Below are positions 3,631 through 64,000 of a DNA stretch of 64,000 nucleotides, piece after piece. Source of the stretch: Blastochloris sulfoviridis (GTDB taxonomy: Bacteria; Pseudomonadota; Alphaproteobacteria; Rhizobiales; Xanthobacteraceae). The stretch is from contig NZ_VWPL01000015.1 in assembly GCF_008630065.1 (NCBI RefSeq), forward strand, positions 1 to 64,000, written 5' to 3'. Under the pieces are notes generated by a model, which ran no database searches, was not told the origin of the DNA, and saw only the letters and a program-made list of their open reading frames with translations. Both the position numbers and the translations under genes were made by a program. The stretch's first letter is position 1, and every line of letters begins with the position of its first letter.

Positions 3631-3780
3631 TTAGAGCATTTTCCGCAAAAGTGGATACCGGTTTTGCGAAAGAAAATGCGACAAACCAAAAACTTAGAGC
3701 GTCCGATCTGATGCAGTCAGATCGGATAACGCTCTAGAGCATTCTCCGCACGTGTGGATACCGGTTTTGCGGAGAATGTT
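3631..3780. repeat. Dispersed palindromic repeat, family A
   Basis: Two inverted-repeat units in tandem. Each begins TAGAGCATT-TCCGCA, continues to GGATACCGGTTTTGCG and folds back to AATG. Between them is a second hairpin (CCGATCTGA...TCAGATCGG) flanked by AGAGCG/CGCTCT. Related copies lie at 30488-30590, 34646-34813, 52551-52600 and 62007-62072. It lies between tRNA-Leu and the convergent RTX gene. This is a noncoding repeat family, not a gene. Confidence 0.85.
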
Positions 3781-54055: not shown

Positions 54056-54229
54056 CCGGCTCTTGCGCCGCGGACGCAGCAGAATCAGGGCCGGTCGGGC
54101 GTATTTCGCGCCCGCCGGCATCGCCAGCGGCGCTGGATACCTCCAGAACGACAAATCCCGCGTGAGGGGTGACCCGCCGCGCCCAACGAGGCTTTGACCG
54201 CGGAGGGACTTGGCCTTTACGTTCCGGGC

Positions 54230-57200
54230 ATGGCGATATTAGCGGCTCTTCATCACGTCACCCGTTACGTTTACGACCGTCCCGTCCACCTCGGGCCGCA
54301 GCTCATCCGACTCAGGCCGGCACCGCACTGCCGAACGCGCATTCCTTCCTATTCGCTGAAGGTGGTCCCCGAGACCCACTTCGTGAACTGGCAGCAGGAT
54401 CCGTTCGGCAACTGGGTGGCGCGCTTCGTCTTCCCGGAGAAGACCACCGAATTCTCGATCACCGTCGACCTCGTGGCCGAGCTCACGGTGTTCAACCCGT
54501 TCGACTTCTTCGTCGAGCCGTGGGCCGACATCTACCCCTTCGTCTATCCACCCGAGATGGCGCTGGAACTTGCGCCCTGTCTCGAATGCGAGCCGACCGG
54601 CCCGGCCTTCGAGGCCTATCTCGCTGCGCTGCCCAAGGGGCCGGTCAACACTGTCGATTTCCTGGTCGACCTCAACGCCCGCCTGCAGCGCGACATCCGC
54701 TACGTCATCCGCATGGAGCCGGGCGTGCAGGCGCCCGACGAGACGCTGGAGCTCAGGTCCGGCTCATGCCGCGACACCGGCTGGCTTCTGGTGCAGATCC
54801 TGCGCCGGCTCGGCCTCGCCGCCCGCTTCGTCTCGGGCTACCTCGTGCAGCTCAAGCCCGACCTGAAGTCGCTCGACGGCCCGTCGGGCACCGACCACGA
54901 CTTCACCGACCTCCATGCCTGGGCCGAGGTCTACATCCCCGGCGCCGGCTGGATCGGCCTCGACCCGACCTCCGGCCTGTTCTGCGGCGAGGGCCATTTC
55001 CCGCTGTGCGCAGCGCCGCACTATCGCTCGGCCGCGCCGATCTCCGGCACCGTCGACCCCGCCGAGGTGTCGTTCGCCTTCGAGATGAAGGTCACCCGCG
55101 TCGATGAGAAGCCGCGCGTCACATTGCCGTTCTCCGACGAGGCGTGGGCGGCGCTCGACCGGCTGGGCGAGGCGGTGGATGCCGACCTCGCCGCCCAGGA
55201 TGTCCGTCTCACGCTGGGTGGTGAGCCAACCTTCGTCTCGATCGACGACTACCAGTCGGCCGAGTGGAACACCGACGCGGTCGGCCCCACCAAGCGTAGC
55301 CGCGCCGATGATCTGATCCGCCGCCTGCGCGCGCGCTTCGCGCCGGCCGGCCTGCTGCACTACGGCCAGGGCAAGTGGTACCCGGGCGAGAGCCTGCCGC
55401 GCTGGTCGTTCGCGCTCTACTGGCGCAAGGATGGCAAGCCGATCTGGCGCAATCCGGACCTGATCGCCCGCGAGAACGCGCCCGCCCGCTGCTCGCCCGA
55501 AGACGCCAGGGACGTCGCCTGCGGCATCGCCGAGCGGCTCGGCCTTGAGGCCGATTACGTCGTCCCGGCATTCGAGGATCCGGCGCATTGGCTGCTGCAG
55601 GAGGCGAAGCTGCCGCCCAATGTCGATACTCAGGATTCGAAACTGGAGGACGCCGAGGCGCGCGCCCGCATCGCCAAGGTGTTCGACCGCGGGCTTGGCA
55701 CGCCGGTCGGCTACGTGCTGCCGGTGCAGCGCTGGAACGCCGATGGCCGGCGCTGGCGCAGCGAGCATTGGGCGCTGCGGCGCGAGAAGCTGTTCCTGAT
55801 GCCGGGCGACAGCCCGGTCGGCTTCCGCCTGCCGCTGGCGACGCTGCCATGGGTGCCGCCGGCCTCCTATCCCTACGTGGTGCCGGCCGACCCGGTCGAG
55901 CCGAGGGGCGAGCTGCCTGATCCCGACGTGCTGCACCAGCGCGTCGTGCGGGCCGGCGGCGGTGCCCTCCCTGCCGGCAGGAGCGAGCAGGTCGGCCAGA
56001 TCGCCTCGACCGGCGACGACGACGACGCGGTGCGCGCCGCGCTCGCGGTCGAGCCGCGCGACGGCCGCATCACCGTGTTCCTGCCGCCGACCGAGACGCT
56101 GGAGGATTGGCTGGAGCTGATCGCCTGCGTCGAGCGCACCGCCGAGGATCTCGGCCTGCCGGTGCATGTCGAGGGCTACCCGCCGCCGGTCGATCCGCGG
56201 CTTATGGTGTTGAAGGTGACGCCCGACCCCGGCGTGATCGAGGTCAACGTCCAGCCGGCGGCGAGCTGGCACGAATGCGTCGAGATCACCCGCGAACTCT
56301 ATGCCGAGGCGCGGCTCGCCCGGCTCGGCACCGACAAGTTCATGATCGATGGCCGCCACACCGGCACCGGCGGCGGCAACCACGTGGTGATCGGCGGCGC
56401 CACCCCGGCCGACAGCCCGTTCCTGCGCCGGCCCGACGTGCTGAAGAGCCTCATCGTCTATTGGCAGCGCCATCCCGCGCTGTCCTATCTGTTCTCGGGC
56501 CTGTTCATCGGTCCGACCAGCCAAGCGCCGCGCATCGATGAGGCGCGCCATGATTCGCTCTACGAGCTGGAGATCGCGCTGGCCAACATTCCCGCCCCGG
56601 GCTGTGGCCACATCCCGCTGTGGCTGATCGACCGGCTGCTGCGCAATCTGCTCGTCGATTCGAGCGGCAACACCCACCGCACCGAGATCTGCATCGACAA
56701 GCTGTTCTCGCCGGAAGGACCGACCGGCCGGCTCGGCCTCGTCGAGTTCCGCTCCTTCGAGATGCCGCCGGACTGGCGCATGAGCCTCGCACAGCAGCTC
56801 CTCCTGCGGGCGCTGATCGCGTGGTTCTGGCGCGAGCCGCAGGACGGAGCGCTGGTGCGCTGGGGCACCGTGCTGCACGATCGCTTCATGCTGCCCCATT
56901 TCGTGTGGGAGGACTTCCTCGGCGTGCTCGACGACCTTGCGCGCGCCGGCTACCCGTTCGAGCCCACCTGGTTCGCCGCCCAGCGCGAGTTCCGCTTCCC
57001 GTTCTACGGCCGGGTCGAGCACGGCGGCGTGCGGCTGGACCTGCGCCAGGCGTTGGAGCCCTGGCACGTGATGGGCGAGGAAGGCACCGTCGGCGGCACC
57101 GTGCGCTTCGTCGATTCCGCGGTCGAACGGCTTGAGGTGCGGGTGGAGGGCGTGCAGCCCGAGCGCCACGTCATCGCCTGCAACGGCCGCCGCGTGCCGC

Positions 57201-57541
57201 TGGTCTCCACCGGCCGGAACGGCGAGTATGTCGGCGGCGTGCGCTTCAAGGCGTGGCAGCCGGCTTCCGGCCTGCACCCGACGATTCCCGTGCACGCGCC
57301 GCTGACCTTCGACATCCTGGATTCGTGGAACCGCCGCTCGTTCGGCGGCTGCGTTTACCACGTCGCCCATCCGGGCGGCCGCAACTACGACACCTTCCCG
57401 GTCAATTCCTACGAGGCCGAGGCGCGCCGCCTCGCCCGCTTCCAGGACCACGGTCATTCGCCGGGCTATGTCGCCGTGCCGCCGGATGAGGCGACCGGCG
57501 AGTTCCCGTCCACCCTCGATCTGCGCCGGCCACCGCCGTGA
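54230..57541 (+). CDS. Transglutaminase-like protein with DUF2126 amidoligase domain
   Basis: A 1103-residue two-part protein. Residues 1-275 are a bacterial transglutaminase N-domain and core, with the triad visible as Cys180 (SGSCRDTGW), His229 ([10 protein letters not shown]) and Asp245 (GLDPTSGL). From about residue 290 to 1090 runs DUF2126, a predicted ATP-dependent COOH-NH2 ligase related to glutamine synthetase-like amidoligases ([28 protein letters not shown]). Together they suggest making and cutting amide bonds on an unknown peptide. There is no signal peptide, so it should be cytoplasmic. ATG 54230 matches family N-termini; a TTG at 54194 is less likely. The ATP-grasp gene overlaps its stop. 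Confidence 0.92.
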
Positions 57542-60039
57542 GCACCGCCGTGACCGGCCGCGCGCCCCACGAGCCCGATCTCGCCGGCTGCCGCCAGGCG
57601 CTCATCGACGGCTACCGGCCGCTGCCCGGCGTGCGCGACGAGATGATGGACGAAGGCGGCGCGGTGCGTCCGCACTGGCTGCCGGTGCTCGACGGGCTTG
57701 CCGCGCTGGGGCCGGCCGAGGTCGGCCGGCGGTTCCAGAACGCCGACCGCTATTTGCGCGATTCCGGCGTGTTCTACCGGCTCTATGACGATGCCGCCGG
57801 TGTCGAGCGGCCCTGGCCGCTGTCGCACCTGCCGCTGGTGATCGACCCCAAGGAATGGCAGGCGCTGGCCTCGGGCCTCGCCCAGCGCGCCACCCTGCTG
57901 GAGCGCCTTTTCGCCGACATCTACGGCCGCGGCCGGCTGGTCGCCGAAGGCCGCCTGCCAGCCGCCGCGGTGGCCGGCAGCCGCGAGTTCCTGCGCCCGC
58001 TGGTCGGCACCCTGCCGGAGGACGGCACGGGCCTCGGCATCTATGCCGCGGACCTCGGGCGCGGGCCGGACGGCCGCTGGTGGGTGCTCAACGACCGCAC
58101 CCAGTCGCCCTCCGGCGCCGGCTATGCGCTGGAGAACCGCATCACCATGGGCCGCGCGCTGCCCGAGCTGTTCGAGCAGCTTCACGTCGTGCGCCTCGCC
58201 GGCTTCTTCCAGACGCTGCGCGCCGGGCTGACCTCGCTCTGCCGCAGCGTCGATTCGCGCGTGTGCCTGCTCACCCCCGGTCCGCTCAACGAGACCTATT
58301 TCGAGCACGCCTACCTCGCCCGCTATCTCGGCTTCGTGCTGGTCGAGGGCGCCGATCTCACGGTGCGCGGCGGCGACGTCCACATCCGCACCATCGAGGG
58401 GCTGGAGCGCACCGACGTGCTGTTGCGCCGGCTCGACTCCGACTGGGCCGACCCGCTGGAGCTCAATCCCGCCTCGCGCATCGGCGTGCCGGGCCTGGTG
58501 CAGGCGGTGCGCTCGGGCAATGTCACGGTGGCCAACGCACTGGGGTCGGGCGTGCTGGAATCGCGCGCTCTGCTCGGCTTCGTGCCGGCGCTGGCGCGCC
58601 ACCTCGTCGGCCGCGAGCTGGAGATTCCCAACGTCGCGACCTGGTGGTGCGGCCAGCCGCTGGAGCGCGAGGCGGTGATCGCCGACCTCGACGCCTTCGT
58701 GATCGCCCCGGCATTCGAGCCGACGCTGCCGCCGCTTCTGCGCAGCGGATCGGTGGTCGCCGCCGAGCTCGACGCGCCCGAGCGCGACGCGCTGATCGAG
58801 CTGGTGCGCCGGCGCGGCGTCGATCTCGTCGCCCACGAGGCGGTGAAGCTCTCCACCACGCCGGTTTGGCGCGACGGCAGGCTGGAGCCGCGGCCGTTCG
58901 TGCTGCGGGTCTATCTCGCCCGCACCCGGGACGGCTGGGCGGTGATGCCGGGCGGCCTGTGCCGCATCGCCGACCATATCGACGCCCGCGCGGTGTCGAT
59001 GCAGCGCGGCGGTCGCGCCGCCGATGTGTGGGTGCCCTCCGAGGCGCCGGTGGCGCCGGTCTCGCTGCTGCCGGCGCCCGGCCACGTGCCGATCCGCCGC
59101 AATGTCGGACCGCTCACCAGCCGGGTCGCCGACAATCTGTTCTGGCTCGGCCGCTACGTCGAGCGCGCCGAGGCGGCGCTGCGCCTCGCCCGCCTGCTCG
59201 CCGCCCGCGCCGCCGAGCGCGAGCGCCGCGGCACCGTCACCACCCGCCTGATCGAGGAACTGCTGCTGGCGTGGGAGGTGGTCGACACCCCGCCCGGCAC
59301 GATGGACCTCATCCGCCTCTCGGTGCGGGCGCTCAACCACCACGACGCGCAGGGCTCGATCCTGGCGCTGGCGTCGGCGGCGCGGCGGGCGGCTTCGGTC
59401 ATCCGCGACCGCTTCTCGCCCGACGCCTGGCGGGCGCTGACCGAGCTTGAGATGGCGCTGTCGCGCACCGTGCCGGCCGACGTCACCGGCGCCACCGTGC
59501 TCGCCCGCATCAACCAGGCGCTGCGCATCACCGCCTCCTTCGCCGGCCTCGCCCAGGAGAACATGAACCAGCTCGCCGGCTGGCGCTTCCTGGAGTTCGG
59601 CCGGCGCATCGAGCGGGCGATCAACACCTGCCGCTTCGTGCGGCAGTTCGGTGTTGCCGGCGCGCCGGACGAGGCGCTCGATGTGCTGCTGGAACTCGCC
59701 GACAGCCAGATCACCTACCGCATGCGCTATGTGATGGTGGCGGCGCGCGCGCCGGTGCTCGACACCGTGGTGCTCGACTCCTCCAACCCGCGCTCGGTGA
59801 CGTTCCAGATCGAGCGCATGCGCGAACACATGGCGGTGCTCACCACGCGCCTGGTGCGCGAGCCGACCTCGCCGCCCGAGCGGCTGCTGCTGCGGCTCGA
59901 TTCCGGCATCGCCACGCTGGACGCCTCCGACATCGACATGCTCGACATGATCCGCGCCGAGCAGACGCTGATGGATCTGTCGGACGCCATCTCCGACCGC
60001 TGGTTCACCCATCGCGGCGAGGCCGACGAGACGCCATGA
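57538..60039 (+). CDS. Circularly permuted ATP-grasp protein fused to alpha-E domain
   Basis: 833 residues. About 70-480 form a circularly permuted ATP-grasp domain (DUF404/DUF407) with [37 protein letters not shown] and [16 protein letters not shown]. From about 510 on is the helical alpha-E domain (DUF403) with [17 protein letters not shown]. It starts at GTG 57538 overlapping the upstream stop (GTGA). The fold predicts ATP-driven peptide bond formation. In related genomes these domains neighbour transglutaminases and sometimes an Ntn-type protease (established knowledge). No such protease is in the window. Confidence 0.93.
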
Positions 60040-60938
60040 TCTACGACGTGCGGCAGGTGACGACCTATCGCTATGCGGCGCCGGTCGCCACGGCAAGCCA
60101 CGTGCTCAGGCTGTCGCCGGTCGACCGGCCCGGCCAGCGCGTGCTGTCGATGGCGCTCGACGTCGAGCCGTGGCCGGCCGAACGCTCGGAGGCGCGCGAC
60201 TTCTTCGGCAACGGCCTCACCCGCATCGCCTTGCACACCCGCCACGAGGCGCTGGTGCTGCGTACCACCGCGCGCATCGACGTCACCCCGCCGCCGGTCC
60301 CCGAGCCCGAGGTGACGCCGCCCTGGGAGACGGTGCGCGAACTCGCCTGGGCCTCGGCCGACCTCACCCCCACCGCGCCCGTCCACCATCTCTTTCCCAG
60401 CCGGCGGGTGCCGGTGGTGGCGGACATCACCGCCTACGCCGCCGAAAGCTTCGCGCGCGGACGGCCGATCCTGGCGTCGGCCTTCGAGCTGGCCTGCCGC
60501 ATCAAGGCCGACTTCGCCTATGAGCCCGGCGCCACCGACGTGACCACGCCGGTCGCGACGGCCTTCGCGCTGAAGCGCGGCGTCTGCCAGGATTTCAGCG
60601 AGATCATGATCGCCGGCCTGCGCGGGCTGGGCCTCGCTGCGGGGTATGTCTCGGGCTTCCTGCGCACCGAGCCGCCGCCGGGGCAGGAGCGCCTGGAAGG
60701 GGCGGACGCCACCCACGCCTGGGTGTCGCTGTGGTGCGGCCCGCGCGCCGGCTGGATCGGCCTCGACCCCACCAACGCCATGCTTGCCGGGCTCGACCAC
60801 ATCGTGCTGGCGGTGGGCCGCGACTATGCCGACGCCGCGCCGGTCGACGGCGTGATCATCGCCACCGGCGACCATGCGCTCGACGTTGCCGTCGACGTGG
60901 TGCCGGTGGACGCGCCCGCGGCCTCGGGGCCTGTGTGA
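60036..60938 (+). CDS. Transglutaminase-like cysteine peptidase family protein
   Basis: 300 residues with an N-terminal immunoglobulin-like region ([16 protein letters not shown]) and a transglutaminase core. The triad is visible as Cys184 (KRGVCQDFSE), His227 (ATHAWVSLW) and Asp244 (GLDPTNAM). ATG 60036 overlaps the ATP-grasp stop (ATGA), so all three genes are translated as one unit. It probably hydrolyses or transfers the amide bonds made by the ligases of this operon (inference). There is no signal peptide. Confidence 0.93.
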   Translation: MIYDVRQVTTYRYAAPVATASHVLRLSPVDRPGQRVLSMALDVEPWPAERSEARDFFGNGLTRIALHTRHEALVLRTTARIDVTPPPVPEPEVTPPWETVRELAWASADLTPTAPVHHLFPSRRVPVVADITAYAAESFARGRPILASAFELACRIKADFAYEPGATDVTTPVATAFALKRGVCQDFSEIMIAGLRGLGLAAGYVSGFLRTEPPPGQERLEGADATHAWVSLWCGPRAGWIGLDPTNAMLAGLDHIVLAVGRDYADAAPVDGVIIATGDHALDVAVDVVPVDAPAASGPV

Positions 60939-61003: not shown

Positions 61004-61423
61004 CTACAAAGTACGCAACGTCGTGGAGAACACCTCGATCCCGTCGACACTGATGCTCAGCACCACCGTCAACTGATCCTTCTCGTCGAGATTGATCGTG
61101 GTCGTCGACAGGGGCTGGCTCTCGCCGGCCTGCAGCTTGAATTCCCCGCCCTGCTTGGTTTCCGACTTGCCGCCCTTGCTGCTGCGTGTCAGCGCCAGCG
61201 TGAACCGGCCTGCCGCATCGGTGAGGGCAAGGACGTGGCCGCGAAGGGTAATGTGGTCCCTGCCCTTGGCAGACGGCTGCACCTCGACCCAACCGATCAC
61301 GGACGCTGCGCCGGCAGCCATGGCATGTCCTCCCTGTGGGATGGTTGCTTGGATCACGAGGCCCGTGACACCGCCTGCGGCCGATTGCAGGACGGACCTG
61401 CGCGTGGGTGCTGTCGAAGTCAT
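61004..61423 (-). CDS. csgH: Curli assembly chaperone CsgH-like
   Basis: A 139-residue secreted protein. The mature part has the immunoglobulin-like CsgH pattern: GRFTLALTRSSKGGKS, QGGEFKLQAGESQ, TINLDEKDQLTVVLSISVDG. CsgH is the alphaproteobacterial counterpart of CsgC and stops curlin from forming amyloid in the periplasm (established for the Rhodopseudomonas protein). The N-terminus has a twin-arginine-like signal (TRRSVLQSAAGG) rather than a plain Sec signal. ATG 61423 overlaps the stop of the upstream secreted protein gene. The curlin genes lie upstream on the same strand. Confidence 0.82.
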   Translation of the reverse strand: MTSTAPTRRSVLQSAAGGVTGLVIQATIPQGGHAMAAGAASVIGWVEVQPSAKGRDHITLRGHVLALTDAAGRFTLALTRSSKGGKSETKQGGEFKLQAGESQPLSTTTINLDEKDQLTVVLSISVDGIEVFSTTLRTL

Positions 61424-61986
61424 CGCATTCTCCCGGGATGGAGCGGGAACGTTGGGCCGAAAAAGCCCGGCGCGGGGCGGCGCTTCTGATTGACGGTGAC
61501 GATCGGCGGGACGCCATCGACGGCTGGAATCCCAAGCCGGTCGAGCACCGGCAGCGTGTCCGGGTTCGGCTCCTGCAGCAGCGCGCCCGGCAGGGAGTCC
61601 GCCTGCGAGACCAGCGCGCAGCGCGCGGTCGGACGCGCGGACGGACAGCGGGCCGAAAGGCGCTTGCTGGAGGCGGCAAGCTTGGCATAGGTCGTGCCGT
61701 CTCGCACGCTTCCCCGTTTCGGAATCTGGCGGATGTTGGAGGACATCCCCGTCGCGGGGCGCCGCTTCGCCTGCGCGTGGCGGCGCGGCGCCGAGGCGAA
61801 CCGCGCGATCTGGGGGACTGCAACGGACCTTGTCTCAGTGGACGTGGCGGCGCGGCGCGTGCGCGTCTCGGCCGCCGCCCGGTCGATAGCCGACAGGCTC
61901 AAGACGGCGACACTCGCCAGCGCGACAAGCCGCAGCAGCAAGCGCGGCCGCCGACACCTCGAAACCGGCTTGTCGGTCACATTCAC
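61420..61986 (-). CDS. Basic secreted protein of curli locus, unknown function
   Basis: 188 residues that I do not recognise. Residues 1-45 are a signal peptide (RLLLRLVALASVAVLSLSAI, then AAAET). The mature part is rich in Arg, Ala, Ser and Pro, with two Cys in SARCPSARPTARCAL and a Pro-rich C-terminus. A GTG start at 61986 is preceded by GGAAGGCGGGAAG; the frame is open to 62169 through a family A repeat, which is not coding. It overlaps csgH by ATGA, so its function is likely tied to curli export or folding (inference). Confidence 0.7.
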   Translation of the reverse strand: MNVTDKPVSRCRRPRLLLRLVALASVAVLSLSAIDRAAAETRTRRAATSTETRSVAVPQIARFASAPRRHAQAKRRPATGMSSNIRQIPKRGSVRDGTTYAKLAASSKRLSARCPSARPTARCALVSQADSLPGALLQEPNPDTLPVLDRLGIPAVDGVPPIVTVNQKRRPAPGFFGPTFPLHPGRMR

Positions 61987-62006
61987 GACTTCCCGCCTTC
62001 CGTGGG

Positions 62007-62072
62007 CTAGAGCATTCTCCGCAAAAGTGGGTACCGGTTTTGCGGAAGAGAATGCGACAAACCAAGAACTTA
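62007..62072. repeat. Dispersed repeat, family A
   Basis: CTAGAGCATTCTCCGCAAAA, GGTACCGGTTTTGCGG, AGAGAATGCGACAAACCA: nearly the same as the first unit at 3631. It joins directly to a family C element. Confidence 0.85.
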
Positions 62073-62195
62073 TACCAACGGCAGCGAAAGCTGACCGTTG
62101 GTTCCGGTCGCGGATTTTCGGAAATCTCTGATTTCCGGAGAGAAAATCCGCGAGTGTCGGCGGCCCCACGCGTCAGCGTTTGGGGCCGTTGGTAT
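62072..62195. repeat. Dispersed inverted-repeat element, family C (complete)
   Basis: 124 bases with perfect 10-base terminal inverted repeats ATACCAACGG (62072-62081) and CCGTTGGTAT (62186-62195). The interior is the reverse complement of the copy at 21972-22096, including CCCCACGCGTCAGCGTTTGGGG and a GGAAATC...GATTTCC hairpin. There is no coding capacity. Confidence 0.8.
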
Positions 62196-62236
62196 TAGAG
62201 CATCCGCTTGATCCAATCAGATCGGCGGATGCTCTA
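62196..62236. repeat. Hairpin with 12-base arms, family A-related
   Basis: TAGAGCATCCGC (62196-62207) and GCGGATGCTCTA (62225-62236) flank a GATC-rich centre. A close relative is inside the repeat block at 34646-34813 (GAGCATCCG/CGGATGCTC). Confidence 0.75.
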
Positions 62237-62360
62237 AGCGTCACCGCAGGGCGGTCATCCTTGCCGCGCCATGCCGAACGCCAAATCGCCAACCCGCCGC
62301 GCGCAGCCCGAGTTCCGGCACCGGCTCATAGGGTTTCCGGTTGATTGGCTCGGCCTCTTC

Positions 62361-62515
62361 TTCCCTCTCCCCTTGCGGGAGAGGGTGCCGAGCGATCGTC
62401 AGGTCGCGAGGCGGGTGAGGGGCGAATCTTCCAGCATCCGCTCGTATGCACCCCTCACCCGGCTCGACCTCGCTTCGCTCGGTCTCGCCACCCTCTCCCA
62501 CAAGGGGAGAGGGAA
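62361..62515. repeat. Dispersed repeat, family F, with 15-base ends
   Basis: Perfect terminal inverted repeats TTCCCTCTCCCCTTG (62361-62375) and CAAGGGGAGAGGGAA (62501-62515). Inside are GGGTGAGGGG and the complementary CCCCTCACCC. It is a common spacer element in rhizobial genomes and related to 28265-28350. Confidence 0.8.
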
Positions 62516-62564
62516 GAACGCGGCTCCTGGCCCTCAGTTGATCCCTTCGAGTTCCGGCACCATC

Positions 62565-62996
62565 TCAGAACTGATTGACGATGAGCGGCAGGCCGTTGCC
62601 GACGCCCATCTGGTGGATCTCGACGGCGTGACCCGAGCCGAACTGGCCGACAACGGCTTTCAGGTTTGCCCCGCTCTGGTCGACCACGGCCGAATTGCCG
62701 GCCCCGGCCTGCCCGACGACCGCGCCGAGATCGGCACCCTCCTGGCGCACCGTGGCCTGGTTGTCGCTGCCGAACTGACCGACCAGCGCCGCATTGCCGC
62801 CCGCCAGCGCCCCGGCGGCGATCGCCGACTGTTCGACGGTGGCGCCATTGTTGCTGCCGGCCTGATAGGTCGTCTGCAGATTGCCGGTGATCTGCTCGAT
62901 CTCCAGGCCGCCCGCATTGGCGGCGGAGACGGCACCAACGAGAAGCCCCCCTGCCGCCCAGAATCGCCAACCCGGTCGCCGTGCCATGGCGTTCAT
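62565..62996 (-). CDS. Curlin-repeat protein (CsgA/CsgB-like)
   Basis: A 143-residue secreted amyloid subunit candidate. Signal peptide at about 1-29 (FWAAGGLLVGAVSAANAGG). Four or so curlin repeats follow, of the form QxGxxNxAxVxQ: VGQFGSDNQATVRQEG, VGQAGAGNSAVVDQSG and VGQFGSGHAVEIHQMG. It is shorter and less Asn-rich than the neighbouring large curlin, so it may be the nucleator (CsgB role) or a minor subunit. GGGGA lies before ATG 62996. Confidence 0.85.
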   Translation of the reverse strand: MNAMARRPGWRFWAAGGLLVGAVSAANAGGLEIEQITGNLQTTYQAGSNNGATVEQSAIAAGALAGGNAALVGQFGSDNQATVRQEGADLGAVVGQAGAGNSAVVDQSGANLKAVVGQFGSGHAVEIHQMGVGNGLPLIVNQF

Positions 62997-63095
62997 TCGA
63001 TGTCCCCGCGAAGCGCTGGTCTGCGGTCGAACCGGCGGGGCGCGCTCGGATGCGGCGCTCCCGCCGGCCGTCGTGTCACGGGCCTGCGCCCGCGG

Positions 63096-64000
63096 TCAGT
63101 TCTGCGTCACGTTCGCGGCGTTGCTGCCGCCGTTCTGGTTAATGGTCGAGGTGTTCACCAGGGAGGTGCCGGACTGCGACACGATTGCCTCGTTGCCGCC
63201 GCCAAATCCCCATTGGTGGATATCCGACGTGTTCGAAGTGCCGGTGCCGGACTGGGTGACTTCGGCCGTCTGATGGCCGTCGTCCTCCTGCATGATCGTC
63301 GAGAGGTTCGTGTTGTTCGTGCCGTACTGCCACACCATGACGTCATTGTAGCCGCCGGCATCACGCTGCGTGATGGTGGAAATGCTCCGGCTATTGACCG
63401 CCTCCTGCGTGACATCGGTCACGTTGAACCCGTTGCCGCCAGTCTGCGTGATCGCTGACCGGTTGCGCAGTGAGCCGCCCGAATTGCCGGACCCGCGTTG
63501 GATCACGGTGGTGTCATTGCTGCCACCGGCTCCGTTCTGGGTGAGGGTCGAGATGTTCTCGTTGGATGACCCTTCCTGGGTCACGCTCGTCCAGTTGTTC
63601 CCGCCACCGCCGCTTTGGTTGATCGTGGAGGTGTTGGTGTTGTCGTTGCCCTGCTGGGTGACGCTGAACACCTCATTGTCGCCGCCACCGCCATTCTGGG
63701 TGATGGTGGAGGTGTTGAGGTTGTCCTGCCCTCGCTGATAGACATTGGCAAGATTGCCACCACCTACGCCAAGCTGGTTGATGGTCGATGTATTCAGGTT
63801 GTCCGACCCCTCCTGGGTGACGCTGGTCTCGTTGCCCCCGCCCGTTCCGTTCTGGGTGATGGTGGAATTATTGGAGTTGCGATCGCCGCGCTGGGTCACG
63901 CTGTTGACGGTGTTTCCACCACCGGTGCCAAGCTGGTCGATAATGGAGGTGTTGGAGTTCTCCGATCCTTCCTGCAAGACTTTTGCATTGTTTCCGCCGG
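63096..64000 (-). CDS. Large Asn/Thr-rich curlin-repeat protein, 5' end beyond window
   Basis: At least 300 residues, C-terminal part complete (ends SNAANVTQN). It is made of regular repeats of about 24 residues, each with two strand-like halves: NxNTSTINQxGxGG and GNxxxSVTQxGx, for example DNLNTSTINQLGVGGGNLA. This is the curlin (CsgA) design with Gln, Asn and Gly at the ladder positions. The N-terminus with its signal peptide lies past base 64000. It would form the main fibre of an extracellular amyloid, with CsgH (61004) as periplasmic guard. Exporter genes csgE, csgF and csgG are not in the window. Confidence 0.88.
   Translation of the reverse strand, partial: GGNNAKVLQEGSENSNTSIIDQLGTGGGNTVNSVTQRGDRNSNNSTITQNGTGGGNETSVTQEGSDNLNTSTINQLGVGGGNLANVYQRGQDNLNTSTITQNGGGGDNEVFSVTQQGNDNTNTSTINQSGGGGNNWTSVTQEGSSNENISTLTQNGAGGSNDTTVIQRGSGNSGGSLRNRSAITQTGGNGFNVTDVTQEAVNSRSISTITQRDAGGYNDVMVWQYGTNNTNLSTIMQEDDGHQTAEVTQSGTGTSNTSDIHQWGFGGGNEAIVSQSGTSLVNTSTINQNGGSNAANVTQN

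Follow-up and report, generated by a model that had tools for sequence, protein, structure and literature searches.

The first 64,000 nucleotides of a contig of Blastochloris sulfoviridis DSM 729, hereafter called the window, end inside a curli operon that includes csgH and a gene for a basic protein of 188 residues, here named the GVPP protein after a conserved module in its C-terminal part. The locus is interpreted as an alphaproteobacterial curli operon without csgE, in which the GVPP protein would be a secreted basic curli accessory and the neighbouring cysteine-free CsgH would probably be exported in the folded state by the twin-arginine translocation (Tat) system. To this interpretation as a whole we give an even chance. 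The assembly is presented in PMC7193936, and the genome comprises 3,845,334 bp in 91 contigs. It is compared below (as G000) with a second Blastochloris species (G001), a third genome of the genus (G002) and two genomes of one other family, referred to as the Rhodomicrobium family (f31). These are G173 and G201, the latter being Rhodomicrobium sp. R_RK_3, the subject of the genome note PMC5571419.

The GVPP protein and its relatives

The GVPP gene is located on the minus strand (61420..61986) and starts with GTG; its product has a signal-peptide-like N-terminus that extends, by eye, to about residue 39. The original prediction had coupled this basic protein to csgH through an ATGA, and the overlap is indeed found at 61420-61423 and is kept in G001. 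A mechanical list of open reading frames gives a longer frame starting at 62169. The shorter start is supported because in G001 only 9 codons separate the corresponding GTG from a preceding stop codon. The two Blastochloris proteins are collinear and 76% identical. The ratio of nonsynonymous to synonymous substitution rates (dN/dS) is 0.48 in the gene's own frame and 0.56-1.76 in the other five; since one antisense frame comes as near as 0.56, the distinction between frames is clear, not overwhelming. The last half of the gene is the best conserved (dN 0.10, as compared to 0.18-0.21 elsewhere). Taken together, this comparison indicates that the 188-residue gene is real. G002 yielded no match for the GVPP protein nor for CsgH.

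No named family accounts for the protein. A Pfam scan of the window protein returned no family at E<=1 and, in particular, no curlin repeat; the sole NCBIfam row was LppK (E 0.32), far under its cut-off. With the same two collections, the G001 protein matched T2SSM and GAS_sig_Nterm only, both under cut-off. Relatives do exist, so that the earlier statement that the protein has no known match holds for named families and fails beyond them. A profile built from the two Blastochloris proteins found two neighbouring frames of G173, a genome fetched solely on account of its csgH, with E values of 2.7e-7 and 5e-4 among the fetched frames; the resulting four-sequence profile reached G201 at E 2.2e-12. 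Once the relatives are included in the profile the values fall between 3.7e-34 and 6.3e-29, as they must by construction. The G201 protein and the second G173 copy (138 residues) exceed no curated Pfam or NCBIfam cut-off, and the first G173 copy (254 residues) matches curlin models and HpnR only, all under cut-off. All these proteins share a C-terminal core, L..ALL.EPNPDT.P.LDRLGIPAVDGVPPI, which corresponds in the window protein to residues ~132-170 (61477..61593, minus strand) and is common to the curli loci of the Rhodomicrobium family.

The relatives occupy a recurrent position. In G173 the order is curlin, csgB-like gene, 254-residue protein, 138-residue protein and csgH, with the two GVPP copies in tandem; in G201 it is csgF, csgG, curlin, csgB-like gene and GVPP gene, with no csgH nearby. 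The gap from the preceding curlin gene to the GVPP gene measures 112 bp in G001, 44 bp in G173 and 59 bp in G201. The preceding neighbours in G173 and G201 match Curlin_rpt, and CsgF is present in both genomes. As the G201 operon has no adjacent csgH, the GVPP protein tracks the curlins rather than CsgH. Thus, the suggestion that the partner of csgH may be a curli factor gains a link to curli, through a module found behind curlin genes, and loses its emphasis on the coupling with csgH. The 254-residue copy of G173 ends in curlin-like repeats, matching the CsgB model at E 2.7e-5 (24 of 165 bits) and Curlin_rpt at E 0.0016 (18.8 of 20.7 bits). The GVPP protein is, on this sequence evidence, not an orphan: it belongs to a narrow family with relatives beside curlin genes in a second bacterial family.

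Strong profile matches are found in 3 of 397 genomes of the order, in 2 of 296 of the window's own family and in 2 of the 8 genomes of the Rhodomicrobium family; at the level of the class, the window's own genome is the only one of 385, two weaker matches not being counted. All candidates were scored in the Rhodomicrobium family; for the order, the class and the window's own family, the scoring covered at most 13-17 first-look candidates per genome, so that distant members may be missed there. When contigs were scanned, the two Blastochloris proteins retrieved no relative, and a set of five sequences retrieved Rhodomicrobium sp. R_RK_3 only. A profile search of the Protein Data Bank (PDB) with the GVPP module gave no match at E<=1. 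Weak matches of the four-sequence profile occurred in seven genomes (E 3.7e-4 to 0.0096); six of them, inspected by eye, were judged to lie in unrelated or overlapping alternative frames, and the seventh, in G057, was not inspected. One of the rejected frames, in G368, still scores 7.9e-4 with the five-sequence profile. Two further weak matches were dismissed for internal stops.

Cysteines and the twin-arginine motif of CsgH

CsgH (139 residues; 61004..61423, minus strand) exceeds the cut-offs of both NCBIfam NF041112 (69.2 bits, cut-off 35) and Pfam CsgH PF21112 (29.5 bits, cut-off 27), and it is 91% identical between B. sulfoviridis and G001. It was compared with a set of 71 distinct CsgH-like sequences, which represent G001 and 66 of the 67 matching genomes among the 397 of the order. 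G118 dropped out of this set, some second copies are not included, and some starts are mis-called (L046_27, L065, L067 and others). Counted from just ahead of the profile core to the end, cysteines number two in 55 sequences, none in 14, one in 1 and three in 1. The cysteine-free sequences are those of the two Blastochloris species, that of G173 and 11 weaker matches from a single genus, g104. The CsgH of G201, encoded on a separate contig, carries the two cysteines. A passage of Taylor et al. 2016 (PMC4838910) defines CsgH-like proteins by cysteines that lie far apart in the sequence; having none, the CsgH of B. sulfoviridis is a member of the family by profile and fails that definition. In genus g104 (L069-L072, L074, L075, L077-L079, L081 and L082), the cysteine-free CsgH-like proteins adjoin very large curlins and have no strict Tat motif.

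A Tat signal typically combines [ST]RRx[FLVIM]L with a following stretch of mild hydrophobicity and an AxA site, and Tat substrates fold before export. The N-terminus of the B. sulfoviridis CsgH is Tat-like, with TRRSVLQ at residues 7-13 (61385..61405, minus strand) and a likely AMA|A cleavage site, identified by eye; TRRSVLQ is kept in both Blastochloris species. The original prediction had singled out this motif and regarded it as unusual for such a protein. Both points are supported, as the strict motif [STNDG]RRx[FLVIM][LIVM] is present in 2 of the 71 sequences, both from Blastochloris. The pattern [ST]RRx[FLVIM]L appeared in 0.0185% of 200,000 shuffles of the protein's own N-terminus and in 43 of 142,000 when all 71 N-termini were shuffled. 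The maximal 15-residue hydrophobicity of the two Blastochloris proteins is 1.42 and 1.59, the seventh and eleventh lowest values among the 71, and the six sequences below 1.42 have starts judged uncertain or mis-called. TatC is encoded in all three genomes of the genus (E 6.5e-68), the Tat machinery being gauged from this component. The missing cysteines together with the Tat-like signal suggest that CsgH probably folds before it leaves the cytoplasm and is exported in that state; pre-folding would suit a domain devoid of disulphides.

Proposed roles and competing explanations

From what is observed, namely gene content, gene order, conservation, the paralogue with a curlin-like end, the missing cysteines and the twin-arginine motif, we infer export routes, curlin binding and a place in the fibre as follows. 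In the GVPP protein, a signal of the Sec type appears to be followed by a long basic middle part and, towards the C-terminus, by the short GVPP module; the protein would most likely leave the cytoplasm by Sec. In the periplasm it could meet the acidic curlins, or else pass through CsgG with them, and it may then remain on the fibre, either as an anchor or as one of its minor constituents. The neighbouring CsgH would be the usual amyloid-blocking chaperone, without disulphide cysteines and with a Tat signal. The position of the GVPP gene behind the curlins, along with the joined repeats, speaks for an accessory that is associated with the fibre; the main rival is a CsgE-like gating role. A bolder version, that the GVPP protein is a new assembly or anchoring factor travelling through CsgG into the fibre in a pathway whose CsgH has been rewired from Sec and disulphides to pre-folded Tat export, is held only tentatively and seems doubtful as a whole.

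Charge makes contact with the curlins plausible. The mature window protein has a pI of ~11.9 and a net charge of +18, and the four stand-alone GVPP proteins span pI 11.0-12.0 and net charges of +9 to +18 (cleavage sites placed by eye in each case), whereas the curlins of the B. sulfoviridis operon have pI values of 4.1-4.3. The 254-residue copy of G173 is less extreme (pI 9.2). It has been reported, in a section of PMC4838910, that the action of CsgC and CsgH on CsgA depends on charge, and such a mode of action would agree with a basic protein meeting acidic curlins.

Several observations weigh against this interpretation. Only four genomes are known to carry the GVPP family, and in the G173 copy the curlin-like repeats score under both curated cut-offs. 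The AlphaFold models, with short helices across the GVPP module and strands where the end of the G173 protein is curlin-like, are weak and of low confidence (mean pLDDT 53.0 and 46.8). A special acidity of curlins in GVPP operons was tested and found unsupported: the repeat-region charge of 9 curlins from such operons does not differ significantly from that of 82 others (p 0.19), so that the pairing of charges is generic at best. As for CsgH, the Tat profiles remain sub-threshold (TAT_signal PF10518, 11.6 of 22.7 bits, E 0.29; PF10399, 11.8 of 24 bits, E 0.17), and no NCBIfam TAT model matched its 41-residue N-terminus. Moreover, 12 other CsgH-like sequences (that of G173 and the 11 of g104) are cysteine-free without the strict motif, so that cysteine loss does not require Tat.

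The Tat scores lend weight to the strongest alternative, according to which CsgH goes by Sec and its twin arginine is incidental. On the loosest count, which accepts an RR anywhere in residues 1-35 as called, 19 of the 71 N-termini would qualify. The presence of the full motif ahead of a mild hydrophobic stretch, kept in both species, and the lack of any cysteine that needs periplasmic oxidation count against Sec export, which we consider a serious competitor, although somewhat on the improbable side.

For the GVPP protein itself, the alternative is a periplasmic substitute for CsgE that hands the curlins over to CsgG and acts as gatekeeper of the pore. CsgE was found in none of the three genomes of the genus by a search whose positive control was recovered in E. 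coli, yet CsgF and CsgG are both present in G000 and G001. Passages of Dueholm et al. 2012 (PMC3521004) describe Alphaproteobacteria as lacking csgE and state that where only curlin subunits are recognisable, different proteins have to take over the remaining functions. However, csgE loss is reported across the Alphaproteobacteria and GVPP is found in few genomes, so that most would manage without it; in addition, a paralogue with a curlin-like repeat end suits a fibre component better. Substitution for CsgE is thus regarded as unlikely. Lower still stands a dedicated partnership with CsgH, as a co-chaperone. The ATGA overlap in both Blastochloris genomes that carry the genes, the 37-bp gap between the adjoining GVPP gene and csgH in G173, and the absence of cysteines from all three neighbouring CsgH proteins would suit it; the GVPP gene of G201, in a csgF-csgG-curlin operon with no neighbouring csgH and with a cysteine-bearing csgH on another contig, makes it quite improbable. 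Finally, a genus-level orphan placed in the operon by chance would agree with the faster evolution of the middle region and with the rarity in its own family, but the recurrence of this location behind curlins in another family and the paralogue ending in curlin-like repeats make this very improbable.

The curli of Alphaproteobacteria are reportedly without CsgE and have been little studied. In two families a GVPP protein is associated with the curlin genes, in one case being itself joined to curlin-like repeats, which makes it a concrete candidate for one of the missing roles. If export of a cysteine-free CsgH by Tat is true, an amyloid-blocking chaperone can be delivered folded and independently of periplasmic oxidation, and the curli pathway would include a chaperone that arrives folded and a client that is threaded through Sec.

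The curli operon and known systems

The operon runs on the minus strand in the order csgF, csgG, two curlin genes, csgB-like gene, GVPP gene and csgH, and extends beyond the end of the window. In window coordinates, csgF (66817-67293; CsgF profile E 6.5e-31), csgG (65315-66616; named by eye from an open frame) and one curlin gene (64354-64932; named by eye) are past that end. The csgA-like curlin gene (63096..64000; Curlin_rpt profile) is cut by it and forms in the genome a 398-residue frame (63096-64292) whose true start may be further inside. The csgB-like curlin of 143 residues (62565..62996) matches Curlin_rpt at E 8.5e-18 and the CsgB model at 54.1 bits, under its cut-off of 165. A curli system is thus recognised by profile for the curlin repeat and CsgF and by eye for CsgG, all on one strand and in one block. 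The promoter scan returned no site, and the terminator scan returned 2 against 1.6 expected.

G001 holds the same block minus one curlin. Its csgB-like gene (L013:9028-9480) starts with a sequence that resembles the signal peptide of the long csgA-like protein of B. sulfoviridis, the remainder being csgB; it looks like the product of a recombination in which a curlin gene was lost or gained. From csgB to the GVPP gene the spacer measures 578 bp in B. sulfoviridis as compared to 112 bp in G001, because of two repeat-bearing insertions, both absent from G001, with approximate bounds and no assigned strand. The first (62010..62240) bears a GAGCATTCTCCGCAAAAGTGG-type element, which has 5 matches in the window with up to 3 mismatches, the others being at 3634, 3737, 3761 and 34790. 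The second (62322..62547) bears an inverted CCCTCTCCCCTTGCGGGAGAGGG element, and a 13-bp stretch of the spacer is repeated on either side of it. In a CsgF tree, Blastochloris groups with the Rhodomicrobium family (support 67/86; the G173 branch is long), by which horizontal transfer of the curli operon is only suggested.

The N-terminal part of CsgF binds CsgG. Among 29 CsgF-bearing genomes, 8 encode short CsgF-like proteins in stop-to-stop frames of 100-125 residues. The seven sequences read (L135-L140 and L142) match only the N-terminal Y.P.NP.FGG part (profile positions to ~54 of 132) and have unrelated tails, often rich in Pro, Gly and Thr; such proteins may keep only the CsgG-binding part. 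Elsewhere in the window, a convergent three-gene cluster with 4-base overlaps (54194-60938) encodes a 1115-residue transglutaminase-like protein (by eye), an ATP-grasp plus Alpha-E protein and a transglutaminase-like protein.

A mostly record-level literature search on curli with CsgH, CsgC, twin-arginine, Rhodomicrobium and Blastochloris found no description of a GVPP protein or of a Tat-type CsgH, and a record-level search found none joining curli with Blastochloris. The main text of PMC3521004, supplements apart, mentions neither Blastochloris nor Rhodomicrobium. The alphaproteobacterial operons of Dueholm et al. 2012 likewise contain csgF, csgG, several curlin genes and csgH and no csgE. 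A passage of that work (PMC3521004) states that csgH always adjoins csgA/B; here, in contrast, the GVPP gene stands between the last curlin gene and csgH, in G000, G001 and G173 alike. With the curlin subunits CsgA and CsgB the family shares the curlin-like repeats, under cut-offs, at the end of one G173 paralogue, whereas the window protein is strongly basic and no curlin repeat was found in it. The best match of CsgH among solved structures is the CsgH of Rhodopseudomonas palustris (PDB 2N59; E 1.5e-5 over residues 47-126 of the window protein), one of the CsgC-like amyloid inhibitors, which is likewise encoded in a curli operon. The B. sulfoviridis protein differs from it in having no cysteine, a Tat-type signal and another gene between its own and that of the curlin.

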